This document shows positions 50,603 through 61,287 of a stretch of DNA of 64,000 bases, one piece after another. The DNA lies in the NCBI GenBank assembly GCA_016200485.1, contig JACQEP010000022.1, forward strand, positions 1 to 64,000, given 5' to 3'. This DNA is from Gammaproteobacteria bacterium (GTDB lineage Bacteria > Pseudomonadota > Gammaproteobacteria > Tenderiales > Tenderiaceae). Each line of letters opens with the position of its first letter. Position 1 is the stretch's first letter. The translations under genes were made by a program, and so were the position numbers. The notes beneath the pieces were generated by a model. That model saw nothing but the letters and a program-made list of their open reading frames with translations. It made no database searches and had not been told where the DNA came from.

Positions 50603-50787
50603 AATCATTTCCATCATTTTTACTGGAAAAGGCTAAAGTTCTAATCTTGGATGGCCGATAACCTTATAGGAAAGCAGGGCAAGCGGATCTGATCCGCAGG
50701 CCGGAGCGTTATGGTAGGGATGTTGGAGGTCGAGGCTTGGATTGGCCTGCGCCACCCAATATGTATAGCATGTGGGCGTGGAAGCGC

Positions 50788-50889
50788 TTGACAGATTCAA
50801 GGATGGTGTTATACATTGTTGTACGGGGGTAGGCCCCGTAGTATTCTGTTGTGCAACAGTTGACCGTATTGCTGCACGGGTGGTATAAA
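50788..50889 (+). promoter_or_regulatory. Tandem promoters of the secreted-protein gene
   Basis: P1: TTGACA at 50788-50793 and TATACA at 50810-50815 (16-base spacer). P2: TTGACC at 50860-50865 and TATAAA at 50884-50889 (18-base spacer). The P1 -10 box is part of GTTATACAT (50808-50816), which recurs in the operator at 53017-53045. Upstream of P2 is a perfect dyad CTGTTGTGCAACAG (50846-50859). A hairpin TACGGGG/CCCCGTA lies at 50822-50840. I see no gene between 50603 and 50959. Confidence 0.6.
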
Positions 50890-50959: not shown

Positions 50960-51889
50960 ATGCGTAATATTATGAAAGCGGCGACCTCCATCGGTTCTGC
51001 AGCCCTGGTACTTTCCGGGGTAGCGATGGCGGCTGCTCCTACGACGGCTAATTTTGATCAATGGTCTGTGTCTACCGGCACGATTGGCGCGGCTTGCCCA
51101 ACAGGCTTTACCTGTGGCACCGCAGTGACGGGTGATGGTTTCTTTCAGCGTCAAATTGTTGATACGACGGCTGGTGGTAAGACTTATTTCCAGACAATCA
51201 TCACCGATACGGGTGCAACGGCTACCCAGCCTAATCTGGCTAACCTGACGTTCGGTGACGAAAGCTTTGTCCAGACTCAAAATACCGCTGGCGGTATTTT
51301 GGACAAGCAACGTTTGAAAGAAGTGTCGGGTGCTGACACCTTCGGTGGCAGCACGTCCATCCAGTCTGGTTGGGCGGGTGCTCTTGTTAATCTGGGACAA
51401 AGCCTGAAAAATACTTCTGGTAGCGGTTTCCGTACCGACTTCTTCTATGAAGCCGATACTGCGAACCTGACCGCTGGTGTACCGAACAACATGAAGATGA
51501 AGGTTGCCAGCCGTGTTGGTTTGACGGGTACAGCGGCTCTGGGCACCGATCAGATCTGGCAGGCAGCGCCTACCGGTATCGACTGGCAGGAGTTCCTATT
51601 GGCTGAAGCCAAGGGTACCTACATTTCTGCGAATGGTACTCTGAATCTGGCAGGTGCTACGCCGGCGACTTCGATTACCTATACTACGGGTAACGATATC
51701 AAGGGTGTTTATGTCGGTCAGAACATGAATGCGACCGTGGGCCAGGAGTTTGGTTATCAGAACTTTGATAACGTCAGCGATGCGCTGGCTCTGATCAGCA
51801 AGTTCGGTCTGACAGCAGGTTCGGCGGTTGGTCCAAGTGGTTGGCCGGCTGTGTTTGGCAGCACTGCGACCGACGGTACTGGCTTCTAA
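50960..51889 (+). CDS. Secreted protein of unknown function
   Basis: A 309-residue exported protein with a signal peptide (MKAATSIGSAALVLSGVAMAA). The mature part is rich in Thr, Gly, Ala and Asn with very few charged residues, contains two cysteines (CPTGFTCG) and repeated short strands such as TGDGFFQRQIV and GGKTYFQTIITD. The layout suggests an extracellular or surface beta protein; I do not recognise the family. It ends ATDGTGF without a lipobox. It has a strong ribosome-binding site (GGAGG), two promoters and a strong terminator, so it is probably expressed highly and alone. The genes downstream look like an envelope transport system. Confidence 0.75.
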   Translation: MRNIMKAATSIGSAALVLSGVAMAAAPTTANFDQWSVSTGTIGAACPTGFTCGTAVTGDGFFQRQIVDTTAGGKTYFQTIITDTGATATQPNLANLTFGDESFVQTQNTAGGILDKQRLKEVSGADTFGGSTSIQSGWAGALVNLGQSLKNTSGSGFRTDFFYEADTANLTAGVPNNMKMKVASRVGLTGTAALGTDQIWQAAPTGIDWQEFLLAEAKGTYISANGTLNLAGATPATSITYTTGNDIKGVYVGQNMNATVGQEFGYQNFDNVSDALALISKFGLTAGSAVGPSGWPAVFGSTATDGTGF

Positions 51890-51949: not shown

Positions 51950-52049
51950 TGAAATAAAGATAGATATAGTGGCCATTGTTGGCGATGGCAATTTTGACGG
52001 TTGTCCGTGTGGATGAGTAATGAATTTCAGATTGGCAAAGGGAGGGGCG

Positions 52050-52868
52050 ATGATACAAGTCTTGGGTAATATTCGAGGAAGTCTGTCGCTGCTATTGTGC
52101 TTGTCTCTGGTAGAGGTGGCGATGGCGGCTGATCCAACGGCGAATGATATTGTGCAGCAATGTGAGTACAAAAGCGCGGGGCCTGATAATACTTCGCAGC
52201 TGAGTATTACTCTAATCGATAAGGATGGCAGTGAACGTAAGAACGTCTATCGTCGACTGTGGAAGAATTATCGTGAGGCGGGTGGCGAGGTGGCGGATAA
52301 GATGGTGTTGATGACTGAATTTCCGCCAGATGCTCGCGGCACCGGTTTTTTGCGCTGGGGTTATTTGGCAGCCAGTGGCAAAATGGCAGATCAATGGTTG
52401 TATTTACCGCAACTGCGCAAGATTCGTCGCGTTTCTGTGCGTGATCCTGGAGATAGCTTTTTGGGTTCCGATTTGACCTATGGCGATATCGATGATCGGC
52501 CAGTAACGGCTGATACCCATACCTTGCTTCGGGTGGAGAATCTCGGTGGTCAGCCGCACTATGTAGTGGAGAGTGTGCCTAAAGAAGCGAACTCTCTCTA
52601 TAGCAAACGTGTGTCGTGGTATGCCAAGGGGCAGAATTGGGCGGGTTGCGTACGCCAGAAGACCGATTATTTCGATCGTCAGGGGATGTTGCTAAAAACG
52701 GCTACACTGAAGTGGCAGCAGGTGGGAAAGGCATGGGCCTGGGACCGGGTGCAGGTAGAAAACGTACAGACGCGCCACAAGTCGTTGTTTGAAGTCACTG
52801 ATGTAAAGGTGGGGGTCGGGTTGGAGGATCGCCAGTTTACGGAGCGAGAGCTGCAAAAAGGTGGTTAA
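52050..52868 (+). CDS. LolA-like outer-membrane lipoprotein-sorting protein
   Basis: A 272-residue periplasmic protein. The start MIQVLGNIRGS has a strong ribosome-binding site (GGGAGGGG) and yields a signal peptide ending VAMA; an earlier in-frame ATG at 52020 has none. The mature part fits the LolA-like (PF17131-type) fold: an alpha/beta half-barrel with DQWLYLPQLRKIRRVSVRDPGDSFLGSDLTYGDI. Such proteins accompany MMPL/RND exporters and DUF1302-type barrel proteins and are thought to carry a lipid-like cargo across the periplasm. A terminator follows at 52897-52928. Confidence 0.8.
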   Translation: MIQVLGNIRGSLSLLLCLSLVEVAMAADPTANDIVQQCEYKSAGPDNTSQLSITLIDKDGSERKNVYRRLWKNYREAGGEVADKMVLMTEFPPDARGTGFLRWGYLAASGKMADQWLYLPQLRKIRRVSVRDPGDSFLGSDLTYGDIDDRPVTADTHTLLRVENLGGQPHYVVESVPKEANSLYSKRVSWYAKGQNWAGCVRQKTDYFDRQGMLLKTATLKWQQVGKAWAWDRVQVENVQTRHKSLFEVTDVKVGVGLEDRQFTERELQKGG

Positions 52869-52928: not shown

Positions 52929-53016
52929 ATTTGATGTATAACATTACTTATAATAAAAAGTCCTTTAAGGACGATTGGTTATCGCTGCGTGGGTAGTTGA
53001 GCTTGACTTCGCGATG

Positions 53017-53045
53017 ACACATGTATAACATTGTTACACATGTGT
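53017..53045. promoter_or_regulatory. Palindromic operator upstream of the RHH regulator gene
   Basis: A near-perfect 29-base palindrome: arms ACACATGTATAAC and GTTACACATGTGT with one mismatched pair. A -10-like TATAAC (53024-53029) with -35-like TTGACT (53003-53008) falls inside it, so binding would block transcription. The core ATGTATAACATT also occurs at 52934-52945, and its reverse GTTATACAT at 50808-50816. Confidence 0.65.
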
Positions 53046-53090
53046 TTGACATGGGTATATGGATGCCCTATGACACGGAGGACAAGGCCA

Positions 53091-53501
53091 ATGAGTAATC
53101 AAATACCCAATCCTGGGAAAATCATGCGGGAGCGTGCGCTCTCCATGGCAATGAAGCGTAAAGAAGAATACCTTGGGGCACGCGTGCCGCGCGAATTACG
53201 GGATCGCGTGTTACAACGATCCAAAGACCTGGGGATACCGGTTTCAATCCTGATTCGCAATATTCTGGAAGAAGCCTTTAAGGAGGCAGAAGCCGCAATG
53301 ACGTCTGGGCAGACGGTGGCAGAGAGTGGCGGCAGGGATGATAGATTTGCGGCTGTTTTGGGCTGGGAAAAGATGGTACTGAATCGCAATGTTGTATGTT
53401 CCGGGTGCAGTATTTCGTTGCATGCGGGGCAGAGCGTGACTTTGGGGCTGGGGGCAGGTGAGCTCATTGTGTTGTGTGATAAGTGCAAGAGCCGCATCTG
53501 A
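53091..53501 (+). CDS. Ribbon-helix-helix regulator with C-terminal zinc ribbon
   Basis: A 136-residue protein. Residues 27-67 (EYLGARVPRELRDRVLQRSKDLGIPVSILIRNILEEAF) form a ribbon-helix-helix DNA-binding unit of the CopG/Arc type. The C-terminal 35 residues hold two Cys pairs (Cys103/Cys106 and Cys129/Cys132), a zinc-ribbon-like knuckle pair. I do not know this exact two-domain family. GGAGG precedes ATG 53091; a longer frame to 53031 lacks a good start. A palindrome just upstream suggests autoregulation. It lies in front of the barrel-exporter genes. Confidence 0.75.
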   Translation: MSNQIPNPGKIMRERALSMAMKRKEEYLGARVPRELRDRVLQRSKDLGIPVSILIRNILEEAFKEAEAAMTSGQTVAESGGRDDRFAAVLGWEKMVLNRNVVCSGCSISLHAGQSVTLGLGAGELIVLCDKCKSRI

Positions 53502-53531: not shown

Positions 53532-55001
53532 GTGTTACGGCAATTACTGATATCTTTTCTTGCGGCGGGATTGCTGATGGCCGGGACGATACACGCCCAA
53601 GAGAGCGCGTTCAGTTCCGGCGGCAGTGATTTATTTGGCACGCAACTCGATCTTGAGCAAGATACAAGTGTTTGGTCGAAAATTCGGCTGAGCGGTTATC
53701 TAAAAAATGAAACTGCGTATCGAATGCGTGAGCCGCGCTCGATTACCAAAATTCGCAATATAGCTTACGCCAATGTTCAGTATCCCTATAGCGACACGGT
53801 GAACCTTACCTATTCGGGGTGGGCTTACTATGACCTCGCCTACGATTTGTTCAATTACGAAACCATCGCTGCGCGTTTGGAGCGTAATCAAAATGAGCCG
53901 TTGGCTTTCGTTAAAAATCTTTCCCACGAAAAAGACTCGCCAGTAATTGCGACGCGTGAGATGTACATAGACGTCTCACACGGTTCGTGGGATGTGCGCG
54001 CGGGTAAACAATATGTGGTATGGGGTGTGCTAGAGGGGGTGCGGATTGTCGATGAAATCAATCCGATGGATTTCCGCGAACTGATCCTGCCCGATTTGCT
54101 TGATTACCGGATACCGCTCTGGACCTTTAAGTTGGATCACTACGCTGATGCAGGTAATTTTGAGTTATTGTTGATTCCGGATTTGAAATTTCATAAACCA
54201 GCGCCTCCTGGATCAGAATGGGAGTTATTGCAGGATGTGCCGGGGACGACGAAGCCGGAGTCGTGGAAGCTGGAGAATACAGAGATTGGTCTGCGCTGGT
54301 CGACGACCTGGCTCGATACCGAATTGGCATTAAGCTATTTCTATACTTGGGATGATTTTCCAGTCATCTTTCGCACAGTTAAAATTGACGGAACGATTCC
54401 AGCAGTATTTTTCCCAACCTATACACGAATCTCAATGTACGGCTTGACGGCTGTTCGGCAAATGGGAAATTACATTCTCAAGGGTGAGTTTGCTTATGTG
54501 ACCGATAAATTTTTCGGGCGGAGTAATACTGCTGATATCGACAAGGATGGTTATGTCGATACCAACGGTGAGGCGCAGAAAAATCATTTTCGCTGGGGGG
54601 GCGGTGTCGATTTTGTGATGATGGGCTGGGATGTGTCGCTTGGGATGATGCAGTGGATAGTGTTGGGATGGGAGCCGACGCTGATCCAGAAGCAGACGGA
54701 TACGTCCTATAATCTGTTCATGCGACGTGAGTTTCCTCAGTATTCGATGACGGCGCAGTTGCTCTTCATTTACTTACAGGGATTGAAGGAGACTTACTGG
54801 AAGCCGAAGGTGTTCTTCCAGGTGACGAACCGTTTTCAGGTTGCGGTGGGCATGGACATGTTTGATGGACGCGGGTCCGATTTCGGGACTTCCAGTGTAA
54901 CGGCGACGGGGCAGTTTAACAACTCGATTCAGGTGGCGCAGTTCCTGGGGAATTTTCATGATAACGATCGCGTCTTTGTTGAGTTTAAATACTCGTTCTA
55001 A
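53532..55001 (+). CDS. DUF1302-like outer-membrane beta-barrel protein
   Basis: A 489-residue barrel protein. Starts at GTG 53532 with a signal peptide (LISFLAAGLLMAGTIHA). The mature part has many amphipathic strands, the segment GKQYVVWGVLEGVRIVDEINPMDFRELILPD typical of DUF1302-like porin relatives, and ends VFVEFKYSF with the C-terminal Phe. DUF1302 barrels occur next to LolA-like and MMPL exporter genes in many proteobacteria. It is the first structural gene after the regulator, 30 bases downstream, and 40 bases before the exporter. Confidence 0.75.
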   Translation: MLRQLLISFLAAGLLMAGTIHAQESAFSSGGSDLFGTQLDLEQDTSVWSKIRLSGYLKNETAYRMREPRSITKIRNIAYANVQYPYSDTVNLTYSGWAYYDLAYDLFNYETIAARLERNQNEPLAFVKNLSHEKDSPVIATREMYIDVSHGSWDVRAGKQYVVWGVLEGVRIVDEINPMDFRELILPDLLDYRIPLWTFKLDHYADAGNFELLLIPDLKFHKPAPPGSEWELLQDVPGTTKPESWKLENTEIGLRWSTTWLDTELALSYFYTWDDFPVIFRTVKIDGTIPAVFFPTYTRISMYGLTAVRQMGNYILKGEFAYVTDKFFGRSNTADIDKDGYVDTNGEAQKNHFRWGGGVDFVMMGWDVSLGMMQWIVLGWEPTLIQKQTDTSYNLFMRREFPQYSMTAQLLFIYLQGLKETYWKPKVFFQVTNRFQVAVGMDMFDGRGSDFGTSSVTATGQFNNSIQVAQFLGNFHDNDRVFVEFKYSF

Positions 55002-55041: not shown

Positions 55042-57477
55042 ATGCGTAAGCTATACGGAATAGTCACCCAATATCCCAAGCTGATCCTTATCATCACGGT
55101 CGCGATGATCGTGTTCCTGGCGATGCAATTGTCATCGTTGCGCTGGGAGACTGATGCACGGGTGTACATGCCAAAGGGGCATCCGGCAATTAAATACGAT
55201 GAGCGGGTCGAGCATCTGTTTGGGGTAAAAGATGCAGTGGTCATCGTCATCGAAAACAATCATAAATCTATTTATAACGCTGAAACCCTGGCGCGCGTGG
55301 CGCGTATTACCGAAAAAGTTGGGGCGCTGCCGGGCGTAGTGGCCTTGCGTACGATCGATGTGGCTTCGTTGGCGACGGCGACGGTATTCGTCGGAACTGA
55401 TGAGGCCATGGGTGCGCAACGCTTGATGCCATACGCACCAAAAACCGAGACGGAAATGGCAGCGCTGAAGCAAAGCGTGCAGCAGCATGCGGATTTGTTG
55501 GTGGGCAATCTTGTGTCTACCGATGGCAATGCGACCATGATACGCGCCAAGCTCAAGGAAGGGGCGGTTAACCGCTATCAGACCTATTGGCAGATCAAAG
55601 GCATTCTTGCCGCTGAGAATGGGGGCGAGGGTGAGTGGCAGGGAAACTGGCAGCAGGGTGGCAATTGGAGTTCGGCGGGTGGCTGGAAGGCGGCTGGAGA
55701 TAAGGCGGCTGATGCCGCAGCCAAGCCCGTATTTGTAACGGCGAAGGATAACGGCGATGTGTTTTATCTTGCCGGGAGGCCGGTCATTGAAGTGACGTCG
55801 GGTTTGCATGCTATGGATGACATGAAACGCATGATTCCCTTGCTGCTGGTGTTAATGGCGTTTGCATTGTTCTTGGTTTTTCGCACCGGGCCTGGTGTTG
55901 CGATCCCGATGTTGGTCATGGCTGGTGCAGTAATTTCCACTTTGGGCTTGATGGCATTTCTGAATGTTCCCCTCTATACCATTTCTACGATGCTGCCGGT
56001 AATTCTGGTGGCCGTGGGGATCGGTGATTCTGTGCATCTGCTGAGTGAATATTACAACAAGGTGTTGGACAACCCGCATCGCAAAGCGGGGGAAATTGTT
56101 GCCGAGGTGTTGGGTGAGCTGGGTTCGCCATTGGTGATGACCTCCGCGACGACGGCGATTGGTTTCTTGACGTTTTTGTTTGCTGATATGCCGCCCTTCA
56201 AAATGTTCGGTTTATTTACGGTGGTAGGGATTGTGTTTAGCTGGTTGCTGACAGTGACCTTTGCAGCGGCATTATTGTCGGTAATGCCGCCCAAGGTAAG
56301 TGGTTATCTATCCAAGCGTCGCTCGATGCGTGTTCATGCTGAACAAGATGTGTTGACGCGATGGTTGGTAACGCTGGGGCGAGGGTTGATGTCTAATCCG
56401 CGGCGTTCGCTGTTGCTGATTGGAGTGGTGACACTGGTCGTTGGTGCGGGTGCAAGTCGTTTGCAGGTCAATTCCAGCTGGATGAGTGATTTTAAAAAAG
56501 GCAGCGAGGTTTCTCAATCGACTCAGTTGCTGAATCAGCGTTTTGACGGGACCATATTCCTCAATGTGGTCATCGAGACGGATCGGCGTGATGCATTTAA
56601 AGATCCCGTGTTGTTGGCGAAGATGGAGGCGCTACAGAATTATGCCGAGAGCTTGCCAGACGTGGGAGATACCTTGTCGGTCGTTGATTTTCTGAAGAGC
56701 ATGAATAAATCGCTGCATGCGGAAGATAACTCATTCAATGTGTTGCCGAAATCGGGGGCGGAAATTGCTGAGGCGCTCTATTTGTTCTCGGTTTCCGGAC
56801 AGCCGGAACTGCTGGACGAGGTGGTGGATTTTGGTTATCAGCGTGCCAACATCAGCATTTCAATCAAGACAGATGAAACTGCGCGCCTGAAGGCGATTAT
56901 CGATAAATTACGCGCCTTTATCGATGCTAATTTGGCGGGGCCTGGCGTGGACGTTAATTTTGCGGGATCGGCGAATAATTCTTATATTTGGGCTGATTTG
57001 CTGATTGATAGCCAGGGCTCGTCGATTATCTTCTCCAAAGTGGGAATTTTTGTGTTGGCAGCATTTTTATTTGGGTCGCTTTATTATGGAGTGATGACGA
57101 TAGTGCCGGTGACTATCACCACGATTCTGGTGGCAGGGGCGGCAGGGTGGTTGAGAGTGCCATTGGATGTGTCGACAGCGTTGGCGGCGGGGGTGGCCAT
57201 TGGTGTGGGGGTCGATTATGCCGTGCATTATCTGTTTCGTTATCGACGTGAACGGCAGAGTGTGGATCATCAAGACGCCGCATTAAATACATTGCGGAGC
57301 ATAGGGCGCACAATAGTTTTCAACGCGGTGGTGGTGACGGTAGGTTTTGCCGTGTTGTTCATGTCGGAGTTTCCGCCGCATGTGAAATTAGGCGTATTTG
57401 TAGTTATTTATATGATTTTGAGCTGTATTGTTGCGCTGATGGTCTTGCCGCTCTTCGATAAGCGGACGCAGACATAA
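55042..57477 (+). CDS. MMPL/RND-superfamily exporter with Trp-rich insert
   Basis: An 811-residue exporter with two repeats of one plus five membrane segments and large periplasmic loops. The conserved GxxxD-type relays appear in TM4 and TM10: VAVGIGDSVHLLSEYY and AIGVGVDYAVHYLFRY. It resembles HpnN and other lipid-exporting MMPL proteins. Residues 193-227, in the first periplasmic loop (55618-55722), are a low-complexity insert with WQ, NW and GW repeats (for example EWQGNWQQGGNWSSAGGW), absent from relatives I know. Stop and next start overlap or abut (ATAATGAG), so it is co-transcribed with the following barrel gene. Confidence 0.88.
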   Translation: MRKLYGIVTQYPKLILIITVAMIVFLAMQLSSLRWETDARVYMPKGHPAIKYDERVEHLFGVKDAVVIVIENNHKSIYNAETLARVARITEKVGALPGVVALRTIDVASLATATVFVGTDEAMGAQRLMPYAPKTETEMAALKQSVQQHADLLVGNLVSTDGNATMIRAKLKEGAVNRYQTYWQIKGILAAENGGEGEWQGNWQQGGNWSSAGGWKAAGDKAADAAAKPVFVTAKDNGDVFYLAGRPVIEVTSGLHAMDDMKRMIPLLLVLMAFALFLVFRTGPGVAIPMLVMAGAVISTLGLMAFLNVPLYTISTMLPVILVAVGIGDSVHLLSEYYNKVLDNPHRKAGEIVAEVLGELGSPLVMTSATTAIGFLTFLFADMPPFKMFGLFTVVGIVFSWLLTVTFAAALLSVMPPKVSGYLSKRRSMRVHAEQDVLTRWLVTLGRGLMSNPRRSLLLIGVVTLVVGAGASRLQVNSSWMSDFKKGSEVSQSTQLLNQRFDGTIFLNVVIETDRRDAFKDPVLLAKMEALQNYAESLPDVGDTLSVVDFLKSMNKSLHAEDNSFNVLPKSGAEIAEALYLFSVSGQPELLDEVVDFGYQRANISISIKTDETARLKAIIDKLRAFIDANLAGPGVDVNFAGSANNSYIWADLLIDSQGSSIIFSKVGIFVLAAFLFGSLYYGVMTIVPVTITTILVAGAAGWLRVPLDVSTALAAGVAIGVGVDYAVHYLFRYRRERQSVDHQDAALNTLRSIGRTIVFNAVVVTVGFAVLFMSEFPPHVKLGVFVVIYMILSCIVALMVLPLFDKRTQT

Positions 57478-57599
57478 TGAGTTCCGCCATGTTGTGGCAG
57501 ATGAGACTTTTCCCGCGTTGGGTGTTGAGAAAAGGGGCGGTTGCCCTTTTTCAGTTTTCACGTCAGGTGTCGTTTGTTTCTTTCCTGCGTGGACATTTA

Positions 57600-58535
57600 A
57601 TGTGTGTTGTGAAGAAACGGATTGTTTATTCGCGGCATGTTCCAGTCCGATTGTTGCAGCTGCTGGTATTGAGTGTGTGCGGTGTTGCCGCAGCTTGGGG
57701 GGCGGAGGAGCGGACGTTTAGTGTCGGGATGTACCTTGGCGTGCATCGTCCTGCCTTGGAGGAATTGAATCAATATGAATTTCAGTCACCTGTTGCAGGG
57801 ACTGCGACGCTTACCAATGCCGCGACCGGAGGTAATGACAGTGTGAGTCTCTATTTTCCTAATCCGCTGCCTGAGTTGGGGTTGGGTACCAATGCGGGGC
57901 TGGAGTTTCAGTGGCAGTTGGACCGTAAGAATTCGGTGATATTTGGTGGTAGCACCTGGGAAGCGTCTTCTCGCGCGACGATTGATGGTTTGTTTTCGCT
58001 GCAAGGTGAGTTGGCGGAAGTGCATATGAAGCGTGCGGCCAAGATGTCTTATAACGAATTCTATGCGGGTGTGCGTCGTTATGTGATTGATGAGCCAAAG
58101 AGATACAAGGTCTACTATCGACTGACGCTTAATGAGATTTACGATATTGATTATCGCGAGGATTTATCTTTTACCTATCTTACAGGGTTGGCTAAAGGAG
58201 TGACCAAGAATATCGTTTTGATGTCTCAGGCGACAGGTTTGCTGGCGCTGCAGCCCGGGATTGGGGGGGATTATTTCTTTCGTGATTGGATGTCGGTGGG
58301 GATCGAGGCTTCCTATTTAATCGGATTGCGTGCAGTCCAGCTGCGAGAGGGGGCGCTGAAACAGGACTTTCTGATTACGGATAATCTTGATTTGTTTCTT
58401 CCATATAAGATTAATACAAACTATGGCTATGCGGAGTATCTTCGTAATCCACCAAAATCCAGAGATGATTATGATCGCCTTGATCTAAGTTTCGATGGCT
58501 GGAAGATTCTGGCGCGGTTGAATCTGTATTTTTAA
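57600..58535 (+). CDS. Predicted outer-membrane protein of unknown function
   Basis: A 311-residue exported protein. I start it at ATG 57600 (MCVVKKRIVYSRH) because this gives a normal signal peptide (LLQLLVLSVCGVAAAWG); the frame is open from ATG 57477, which would add 41 residues and abut the exporter. The mature part has beta-strand patterns rich in Tyr and Asp and ends ARLNLYF, as barrel proteins do. No family is recognised. It stands 13 bases before the TPR-barrel gene, so it is a co-transcribed partner. Confidence 0.7.
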   Translation: MCVVKKRIVYSRHVPVRLLQLLVLSVCGVAAAWGAEERTFSVGMYLGVHRPALEELNQYEFQSPVAGTATLTNAATGGNDSVSLYFPNPLPELGLGTNAGLEFQWQLDRKNSVIFGGSTWEASSRATIDGLFSLQGELAEVHMKRAAKMSYNEFYAGVRRYVIDEPKRYKVYYRLTLNEIYDIDYREDLSFTYLTGLAKGVTKNIVLMSQATGLLALQPGIGGDYFFRDWMSVGIEASYLIGLRAVQLREGALKQDFLITDNLDLFLPYKINTNYGYAEYLRNPPKSRDDYDRLDLSFDGWKILARLNLYF

Positions 58536-58548
58536 TAGCGGCTATATT

Positions 58549-61287
58549 ATGCAGCGAGCGGGAAAACATCGATTCAATGGAGCGTTTTCGCGTGTGATCG
58601 CGCGAGCATTTTGTTGTTTGATGCTTGTTTCTGTAGTTCCAATTTCGCATGCGCAGCAAGAAGCTATTGACTTGCCAGCGGCTCAGCCGGCGGTGAACCG
58701 GTTGTTGGATGTCGCTCGCGAGGCAATGCAAAAGGGAAAGTTTAACGAGGCGTATCAGGTCTTTGCAGAAGTTGTCAGGTTGGATCCCAATAATGCAGAG
58801 GCCTATTATCAGCAGGCCATCATCCATTTTCAGCGCGGTGAGTTTGCGCAGGGCTTGCCATTGATTCGGCGCAGCGTTGAATTGTCGCCTGACAACCTTG
58901 CACTGCGTTTTGCGTATGCCAGGGCTCTAACTGAGTCCAAAAATCCGACAGATGCGATCGAGCAGTATCGCTATATTTTGAGCAAGGCTCCCCCCGAATC
59001 CAAAGAGGCCCAGGAAGCGGACAAGCAGGTGGGCTTGGCGGTGTTTAACGGCTTGGCGGCGCAAGGCAAAATACAGGAAATGGATCAGATAGGTATGCAG
59101 CTGATGCGGCGGCATGGTGGTGAGCCCGATGTCTTGCACAATATCGGGATTACTTTGTATCGGCTGGGTCGTTTTGATGAGGCGATTACTATTTATCGGC
59201 GCCTGATTGGGCTGGTGCCGAATAATCCGGTAGCGCACTTTCATTTGGCGATGGTGTTGGAGGCCAAGGGGGATGTGAGTGGAGCGGAGGTATCCTATCA
59301 AAGAGTGGTTGATTTGGCAGCCAAGTCACCTATGGGGCAAACATCAAAGATTAAGCTGGGTACCATTCGTGGGGTGCGATATCTCCAGGGCGGAGATGTG
59401 GTCTTGGCGCGGCAGGAGTTCGAAGAGGTCATCAAGCTTGATCCTGATAATTTCCAGGTGGGTATGAGTTTGGCGGCATTGCATCATTCGGCGAATGAAT
59501 TGCCAGAGGCGATAAAGGCGTATGAAGGCATTGTCGATCATAATCCTGATAATTTAGAGGCTCGATTACGATTGGGGATGGTGTATTTGGATTCGCGACG
59601 AATTCCAGAGGGCGTTCGCGAATTGGATTTGGTGGTGGCTCGCGGCGGTGAACAGCAAGTGGCGGTCAGTGCCGCCGCATTATTGAATCGGGTTGAACAG
59701 TTGGTGGGGGGGCGTCTTGCGGAAGTGAGGCAAACGAATCGCGATCTGGATCAGTACCTGGCGGCATTGACGCAAAGTCCAGCGGACCCCGATGTTTATT
59801 TTAAATTGGGTGAGATTTGGTTGAAGCTTGGCAATCAAGATAAGGCCAAAGAAGCTTTTCAGAAGGCGGCGGCGCTGGATCCTGGGCATGCTGACGCCCG
59901 ATTGCGTCTTGGTTATATCTACGAAGAAGAAAATAAAATGCCGGAAGCGGCGCGGCAGTATAGCGCGGCATTGGCAGTGGCGACTGATTCGGAACAGATT
60001 GTAAAAATTCAGCGTCTATTGTTGTTGGCACAGGGACGGCAACGATTGGAAAAAGGTGAGCTCGAAGGGGCGGAGGATGCTTTTCGTGAAGTTTTGAAAC
60101 GATTCGATGGCGATTTGACAGCGCTGTGGAATATGGGGGCGGTCAAGTTGCGGCAGGGAAAGCCTGAGGACGCGCTCGGTTGGTATGATGAGGTGATCAA
60201 ACGCTATCCGGATCAGGTTGGGGCACGAATGAATATGGCCCAGGTGTATGAGCAGTTGAGCCGGGAAAACGATGCGATCATTCAATATGGATTTATTGCG
60301 CAATCAAGCAAGGCAAATGACAAGATGCGCCGGTATGCTGAGCAGAGGGCGGATGTTCTCCGGCGGCAGACGAATGGTTTTAGTTATGCCCTGGGTTATA
60401 CGCTGGCCATGGATGACAATGCCAATTTGAGTGATGATGGACTATTTGAATATCGTTCAGATACTTATGCGTCAGTGGCGTATAACTACAAGATCAACAA
60501 GAATTATAAATTCCATCTGGATGCGCGGCCCACGTATTCAACATTTCATCGTGGGCAATATGATTTTTTTAATTTCACGTTAGCCCCGTCATTACAGACA
60601 AGTCGCTGGGGGTATGACTTTTCCCTGGGATATGAGGCATCAAGTCAGTTTGGAGTTCTGCGGGCCGAAGATAATGTCAGTCGCACCAATAATTTTTCTT
60701 TGGATGCATCTTGGCGAAGTGACAACGGCAAATTCTATCAGGTGAACGGGTCTTATCGAACTCTGGCGACTCAGACGAGTCCATTTTTTGATGCGGACAC
60801 GCTGTCTTTGAATCTGTACATTAATCGCCAGTTTGCCGAGGGCATGCCTTTCGGGTATGGCTATACTTTTACGGATAACAAAAATAATCAGCCGTTAGGT
60901 GCGGACTACGCCTATTACAGTCACGCACTTTCTGGGCGGTTGGATAAACGGTTGGGGGGAAAGGTCTCGGTGTTTACAGATGGGTCGGCGACACTGTATG
61001 TGTACAAAAACTTGGACTCTTCGACCTTGTTAACAGGCCCCAAAAGACGTATCAATCTGGCGACCATGGTGCGGCTGGGGGGGAATTATCAATGGACCGA
61101 GAGCTTTAGTGTCAATGTGAGCTATATGGCGTTGATTCAGCGCTCCAACTTGCCACTCGGTATTGTCTATGATCCCACGCAAATCGTTGAGGGGATTATC
61201 TATAGCGGCGCGGTGGCGCGACAAAGTAACTCGCTGGGGGGCTATACGCGGCAGGCGTTCAATATTGGGGTGCGCTACACCTTCTGA
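58549..61287 (+). CDS. Large TPR protein with C-terminal outer-membrane beta-barrel
   Basis: A 912-residue protein with a signal peptide ending ISHA. Residues about 45-610 are a chain of tetratricopeptide-like repeats (FNEAYQVFAEVVRLDPNNAEAYYQQAI is one). Residues about 620-912 are a barrel of roughly 14 strands opening YALGYTLAMDDNANLS and closing FNIGVRYTF. Architectures of periplasmic TPR plus outer-membrane barrel include BcsC/PgaA/PelB polysaccharide exporters and the Slam lipoprotein-translocating family. I cannot assign which. It closes the operon begun by the regulator/barrel genes, and lies convergent with the ABC exporter. Confidence 0.8.
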   Translation: MQRAGKHRFNGAFSRVIARAFCCLMLVSVVPISHAQQEAIDLPAAQPAVNRLLDVAREAMQKGKFNEAYQVFAEVVRLDPNNAEAYYQQAIIHFQRGEFAQGLPLIRRSVELSPDNLALRFAYARALTESKNPTDAIEQYRYILSKAPPESKEAQEADKQVGLAVFNGLAAQGKIQEMDQIGMQLMRRHGGEPDVLHNIGITLYRLGRFDEAITIYRRLIGLVPNNPVAHFHLAMVLEAKGDVSGAEVSYQRVVDLAAKSPMGQTSKIKLGTIRGVRYLQGGDVVLARQEFEEVIKLDPDNFQVGMSLAALHHSANELPEAIKAYEGIVDHNPDNLEARLRLGMVYLDSRRIPEGVRELDLVVARGGEQQVAVSAAALLNRVEQLVGGRLAEVRQTNRDLDQYLAALTQSPADPDVYFKLGEIWLKLGNQDKAKEAFQKAAALDPGHADARLRLGYIYEEENKMPEAARQYSAALAVATDSEQIVKIQRLLLLAQGRQRLEKGELEGAEDAFREVLKRFDGDLTALWNMGAVKLRQGKPEDALGWYDEVIKRYPDQVGARMNMAQVYEQLSRENDAIIQYGFIAQSSKANDKMRRYAEQRADVLRRQTNGFSYALGYTLAMDDNANLSDDGLFEYRSDTYASVAYNYKINKNYKFHLDARPTYSTFHRGQYDFFNFTLAPSLQTSRWGYDFSLGYEASSQFGVLRAEDNVSRTNNFSLDASWRSDNGKFYQVNGSYRTLATQTSPFFDADTLSLNLYINRQFAEGMPFGYGYTFTDNKNNQPLGADYAYYSHALSGRLDKRLGGKVSVFTDGSATLYVYKNLDSSTLLTGPKRRINLATMVRLGGNYQWTESFSVNVSYMALIQRSNLPLGIVYDPTQIVEGIIYSGAVARQSNSLGGYTRQAFNIGVRYTF

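Follow-up and report, generated by a model that had tools for sequence, protein, structure and literature searches.

In MetJ, one of the RHH repressors of the MetJ/Arc/CopG type, the tandem met boxes are spaced by about one helical turn or less. In NikR, an RHH protein, a C-terminal metal-associated domain is present. CdrL of Halobacteria, as far as its description extends, has an N-terminal RHH domain and a C-terminal double zinc ribbon, and its gene lies beside cdrS (PMC7439475). For the gene content around the regulator studied here, the closest described system is the apolar monoterpene efflux system AmeABCD of Castellaniella, reported to comprise DUF1302, DUF1329 and RND components (PMC6394551); the word 'regulator' does not occur in the main text of that paper, and RND, LolA and CopG do not occur in the main text of a further one (PMC5371394). 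We provide evidence that a regulator gene, here called REG, in a 64-kb stretch of bacterial DNA (the window) probably encodes an RHH repressor that acts on tandem TGTNNNACA boxes and represses both its own operon and a secreted-protein gene, SEC; from the sequence comparisons we put the probability of this reading at roughly 0.77.

REG occupies 53091-53501 on the forward strand, starts with the ATG at 53091 and encodes 136 amino acids, with a putative RHH domain at about residues 27-75 and a Cys4 domain at 87-136. Its own genome carries one copy, and 21 of the 369 genomes sampled in the class are REG-positive, again with one copy in each. An alignment of 28 orthologs contains 24 invariant columns, which include much of KRKEEYLGARVP and all four cysteines, C103-x2-C106 and C129-x2-C132 (28 of 28), arranged as two Cys-x2-Cys knuckles; the sequence-only reading of this DNA had noted such a pair at each end of a C-terminal segment, and the pattern proves to be universal among these orthologs. 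The Pfam family CopG_antitoxin weakly matches 27 of the 28 members (best E 2e-4, the window member falling short of the curated cut-off), and weak matches to other RHH families were found for Arc in 7, RHH_1 in 6 and RHH_5 in 5 members. The window protein reaches no curated Pfam or NCBIfam family at its cut-off. A PDB sequence search with the N-terminal part returned mostly RHH proteins, namely MazE7 (E 0.047), AvtR (0.22) and Arc (0.32), and the chains 3oao and 2x3o (both 0.1) rank between them.

The AF2 monomer model of REG has a mean pLDDT of 79 and a pTM of 0.39, and its best part is the Cys4 domain, where residues 91-136 form a block with pLDDT above 90. Helices are predicted at 34-47 and 51-72, and the monomer lacks a formed N-terminal strand. 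Among the matches listed, the four structural look-alikes confined to residues of about 27-75 are MatP, MazE6, TacA2 and AtaR2, all of which we take to be RHH proteins, at low Z scores of 4.0-4.3. The fold list for residues 87-136 is dominated by C1 and zf-PARP domains (Z 5-6), a modelled likeness that may represent only a common arrangement; NikR-like and DZR domains are absent among the matches listed, and Foldseek returned no match at E 0.001 or better. The proposal of an RHH domain followed by a Cys4 (zinc-ribbon-like) domain is thus supported by the alignment, the weak Pfam matches, the AF2 model and the low-Z fold likeness, and we infer that the Cys4 domain binds zinc.

The promoter region of REG had been described as carrying a 29-bp near-palindrome with one mismatch. 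It does: the dyad ACACATGTATAACATTGTTACACATGTGT at 53017-53045 matches its reverse complement in 13 of 14 pairs, the only deviations being the centre and the mismatched pair 9/21. This site is conserved, but not as one 29-bp dyad; because relatives show an array, the predicted operator consists of 9-bp boxes in a helically phased array rather than of a single palindrome. The element shared upstream of REG in relatives is TGTNNNACA, often in the form TGTATAACA or TGTTATACA, and mostly present in two to four copies. On the forward strand of the window, box 1 (TGTATAACA, 53022-53030, centre 53026) lies on the -10, box 2 (TGTTACACA, 53032-53040, centre 53036) stands 10 bp from it and box 3 (TGTTTGACA, 53043-53051, centre 53047) a further 11 bp on. 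The -35 TTGACT (53003-53008, forward) starts 23 bp upstream of the box 1 centre, and the spacer between -35 and -10 is 15 bp if the -10 is TATAAC and 17 bp if it is TAACAT.

Comparison with relatives shows how general this arrangement is. REG loci were drawn from genome contigs (25) and from genomes of the same family (7), several of which are the same contigs, so that the latter added only L036 and L040; L031, whose contig begins 41 bases before the gene, was excluded from the upstream counts. With a score limit of 9, and a phased pair defined by box centres 10, 11 or 19-23 bp apart, 33 of 36 upstream regions have at least two boxes and 32 have a phased pair, against 1 of 720 shuffled regions. 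All nine loci held out from matrix building have a phased pair, and the four regions in which it is missing at this threshold are L017, L019, L029 and L036. Successive boxes in the REG and SEC regions lie 10 bp (n = 21), 11 bp (n = 16) or 19-23 bp (n = 12) apart and never 15-18 bp apart; the few remaining spacings occur once each. TTGAC is present in 30 of the 36 regions, and a box centre follows it by 22-25 bp in 25 of 36, whereas 1000 random shifts give 1.5 regions on average and at most 6 of 36; at this distance the box covers the -10. An extra box coincides with the -35 in L013, L021, L022, L027, L032 and L040, where TGTTTGACA serves as both. Boxes also stand directly ahead of REG where LolA and SEC were not found alongside, for example in L026, L032 and L033.

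Within the window, palindromy alone does not mark out 53017-53045, since 27 palindromes (12-bp arms, at most one mismatch, spacer of at most 7, overlapping registers counted) were found against 0-5 in each of 20 shuffles. Box pairs are more discriminating: a total score of at least 20 is reached only at the REG array, by two overlapping pairs, and in none of 20 shuffles. Only four 13-base boxes in the 64 kb score 12 or more, at 50805, 52933, 53020 and 53030, all within the cluster; the shuffle expectation is 1.9, and 52933, 53020 and 53030 lie in training regions, which 50805 does not. A genome-wide scan for the half-site, proposed earlier as a check, revealed no enrichment: ACATGTATAAC with at most one mismatch occurs at 22 places in its own genome, two of them exact, versus 40 for the reversed control. 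The half-site alone is therefore uninformative, and the pair geometry carries the signal.

Two further sites had been put forward as matches to the dyad, and both are present at their reported positions: a repeat starting at 52934 and, at 50808, a half-site in reverse orientation. The former, ATGTATAACATT at 52934-52945, contains a lone box (TGTATAACA, 52935-52943, forward) 87 bp ahead of box 1; it is unpaired, and the close orthologs L010, L012, L016, L036 and L040 have no box above score 9 at the corresponding place. Of the proposed set of three matching sites, the dyad and the SEC site recur in relatives as predicted operators, and the lone box is a candidate only. The latter, GTTATACAT at 50808-50816, covers the -10 of the SEC promoter (TATACA, 50810-50815), as had been claimed. 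This promoter has its -35 TTGACA at 50788-50793, an operator box TGTTATACA at 50807-50815 on the -10 and, 10 bp on, a second, weak box TGTTGTACG at 50817-50825, all on the forward strand; a weak lone box TGTATAGCA upstream (50762-50770, forward, score 8.8) may be chance. SEC itself (50960-51889, forward) encodes 309 amino acids with no Pfam family, and its predicted fold is mostly beta at low confidence (mean pLDDT 62).

Comparison of promoter sequences strongly supports the site at 50807 as a second operator, on the SEC promoter. We examined 19 SEC copies, 15 in a first set, two in L052 and one each in L060 and L120. The operator was found in eight: the window, L010, L012, L014, L015, L060 and the second copies of L016 and L052. 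The TTGAC-to-box distance is 22-25 bp in all eight, regions chosen for having a site; three of them (L014, L015 and the window) have a weak second box. No operator was found in the other 11 (L013, L017, L019, L020, L021, L022, L024, L027, L120 and the first copies of L016 and L052, the last with only 309 bases available upstream). SEC is duplicated in tandem in L016 and L052, and in both the operator is on the second copy only, within the upstream sequence available for L052. Taken at the level of sequence, the conserved operators at both promoters lend strong support to the earlier suggestion that REG controls itself and SEC.

The genes around REG form a conserved envelope unit. A gene for a LolA-like outer-membrane lipoprotein-sorting protein (Pfam PF17131) lies upstream at 52020-52868, and downstream follow genes for a DUF1302 protein (53532-55001), an RND/MMPL transporter (55042-57477), a conserved 352-aa protein of no known family (57477-58535) and a 912-aa TPR protein (58549-61287), all on the forward strand. 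With gaps of 0-40 bp, these four downstream genes are probably transcribed from the REG promoter. DUF1302 follows REG in 26 of 27 loci, the 27th (L034) ending near a contig edge; upstream, a LolA-like gene is found in 20 of 27 loci and SEC homologs nearby in 15. MMPL was found in 17 of 27, with four loci ending before its position. In L019, L021, L022, L024, L027 and L030 it is missing, the 352-aa gene comes directly after DUF1302 and TPR is kept, which suggests that the pump is dispensable or supplied elsewhere. The 352-aa protein is conserved in the cluster in most relatives and matches nothing in Pfam or NCBIfam. As a test for a type II toxin-antitoxin system, we looked for a toxin gene beside REG and found none; its neighbours in the window are the LolA-like and DUF1302 genes.

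Scanning its own genome (3.06 Mb) with model R1 gave six matches at E ≤10, of which the REG operator is the best (E 0.0245) and the SEC operator the third (0.34). The second, on contig C7 (E 0.22), is a box pair at C7:122865 (L043), second-best in this genome, ahead of a gene for a protein with the PEP-CTERM-like tail IPEPETLALLGIGLLG...RLKRKAQH; a similar case occurs in another genome (L112). Ranks 4-6 are weaker. Ten of the 11 family genomes have a match at E ≤1, and SEC sites outside the model were recovered in two of them, G003 (E 0.106) and G004 (E 0.032). Of the REG-bearing genomes from other families, 17 were scanned, of which 13 match at E ≤1 and four do not; REG's own promoter is the best match in 11 of the 17, seven being training loci and four held out. 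Genomes without REG also match R1 at E ≤1 in 7 of 17 cases. Because of this, little weight can be given to an isolated site at E 0.2-1, and ranks 2 and 4-6 in the window's own genome are candidates only.

Candidate targets that recur in more than one genome are more credible, and overall the candidates are mostly envelope and secreted proteins. They include a short open frame in G006, G007 and G008, beside a putative gene that we take to be nadC (L053, L057, L058); in these three family genomes a multi-box operator precedes a frame of about 55 codons, which is a possible small-protein target. A secreted protein with repeats, taken for the HAF type, recurs in G007 and G008 (L072, L049). G081 and G210 share a large secreted protein whose gene is divergent from a putative gene, presumably purD (L110, L109), and G046 and G062 both have LolA homologs among the candidates (L094, L108). 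Exosortase (PF09721; in genome G000 at C10:105145-105897) exceeds its cut-off in 14 of 19 REG genomes versus 4 of 17 without REG (Fisher p 0.007, for genomes that are related). We dropped this link from the explanation because five REG genomes lack exosortase and the genomes are related.

Building on the conserved boxes, their phasing and promoter overlap, the invariant cysteines and the conserved neighbourhood, we suggest the following mechanism. REG dimers would bind the 9-bp pseudo-palindromic boxes TGTNNNACA, and a spacing of one helical turn between two or three boxes would place dimers side by side, possibly cooperatively, on one face of the DNA, as in MetJ. With a box on the -10, bound REG would block RNA polymerase. 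It would thereby repress its own gene together with the DUF1302, MMPL, 352-aa and TPR genes downstream, presumably as one operon, and would separately repress the SEC gene upstream. A reading in which the repeats are only AT-rich -10 elements with chance palindromes is scarcely credible: TATAAC does resemble a -10, and the one-mismatch half-site is not enriched across the genome, but a -10 does not explain a second box one turn away, and the shuffles and held-out loci exclude chance. The boxes could also be bound by another regulator whose gene lies elsewhere, with REG merely co-inherited alongside. The matches in REG-less genomes would fit such a regulator, but they are at background level; the boxes stand right ahead of REG in almost every relative, even without LolA or SEC beside it, and tandem short palindromes at 10-11 bp suit RHH dimers, and we regard this alternative as unlikely. 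Slightly less probable again is that REG is an activator, or both activator and repressor, which at its boxes would recruit polymerase to weak promoters. The 15-bp spacing from the -35 to TATAAC at the regulator promoter, seen by eye at several others, is below the sigma-70 optimum, which speaks for activation, but the boxes cover the -10 and, with those on the -35 at some loci, leave little room for polymerase, and the TAACAT register restores 17 bp.

What REG as a repressor might respond to is a separate matter, on which we are more tentative. It may be a metal or redox/thiol sensor that lets go of DNA once its Cys4 domain loses zinc or has its cysteines oxidised, an idea compatible with repression and raised by the sequence-only reading; the four invariant cysteines are consistent with it, and an RHH protein that senses metal has a precedent in NikR. 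However, structural Cys4 zinc sites are common, the 28-protein alignment contains no further invariant cysteine or histidine hinting at a separate sensory site, and none of the candidate targets is recognisably a gene for metal or thiol handling. We consider such metal, redox or thiol sensing possible at a rather low probability, and think it just as likely that the zinc site is purely structural. Considerably more speculative, and in our view improbable, is that the Cys4 domain is a C1-like sensor whose ligand, a lipid or hydrophobic compound, is cargo of the LolA-like/DUF1302/MMPL machinery; if true, REG would link lipid traffic in the envelope to surface-protein secretion as a one-component repressor.

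Under the repressor reading, an uncharacterised regulator family gains a concrete predicted binding site, promoter geometry and candidate targets. Additionally, an orphan secreted protein would come under the same switch as an envelope module of which little is understood (LolA-like, DUF1302, RND/MMPL). DUF1302, LolA/DUF1329 and RND are the same trio of envelope parts as in AmeABCD, as far as that system is described, and by analogy this suggests that the REG cluster may transport a hydrophobic substrate.

Compared with NikR, REG likewise joins a putative RHH domain to a C-terminal domain, but it has a Cys4 motif and a different operator, and REG members give no Pfam match to a NikR-type C-terminal domain. 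CdrL, within the part of its description considered, has the same domain order; it is archaeal with a double zinc ribbon (DZR), whereas REG has a single Cys4 unit, with one Cys4 motif instead of two, and only 2 of 28 members match DZR (PF12773; best E 0.075). The searched portion of the literature holds no description of the REG family. Like repressors of the MetJ/Arc/CopG type, REG is a small predicted RHH protein with tandem short pseudo-palindromic boxes over a promoter, and tandem short boxes over the own promoter, a trait of the RHH superfamily, were found in 32 of 36 REG regions. Unlike them, it has the box TGTNNNACA and a C-terminal Cys4 domain, and falls in no curated family at cut-off. 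Thus, within the literature covered, REG represents a family with neither a curated entry nor a published account, whose domain order is already known from CdrL and whose operator style is already known from MetJ.
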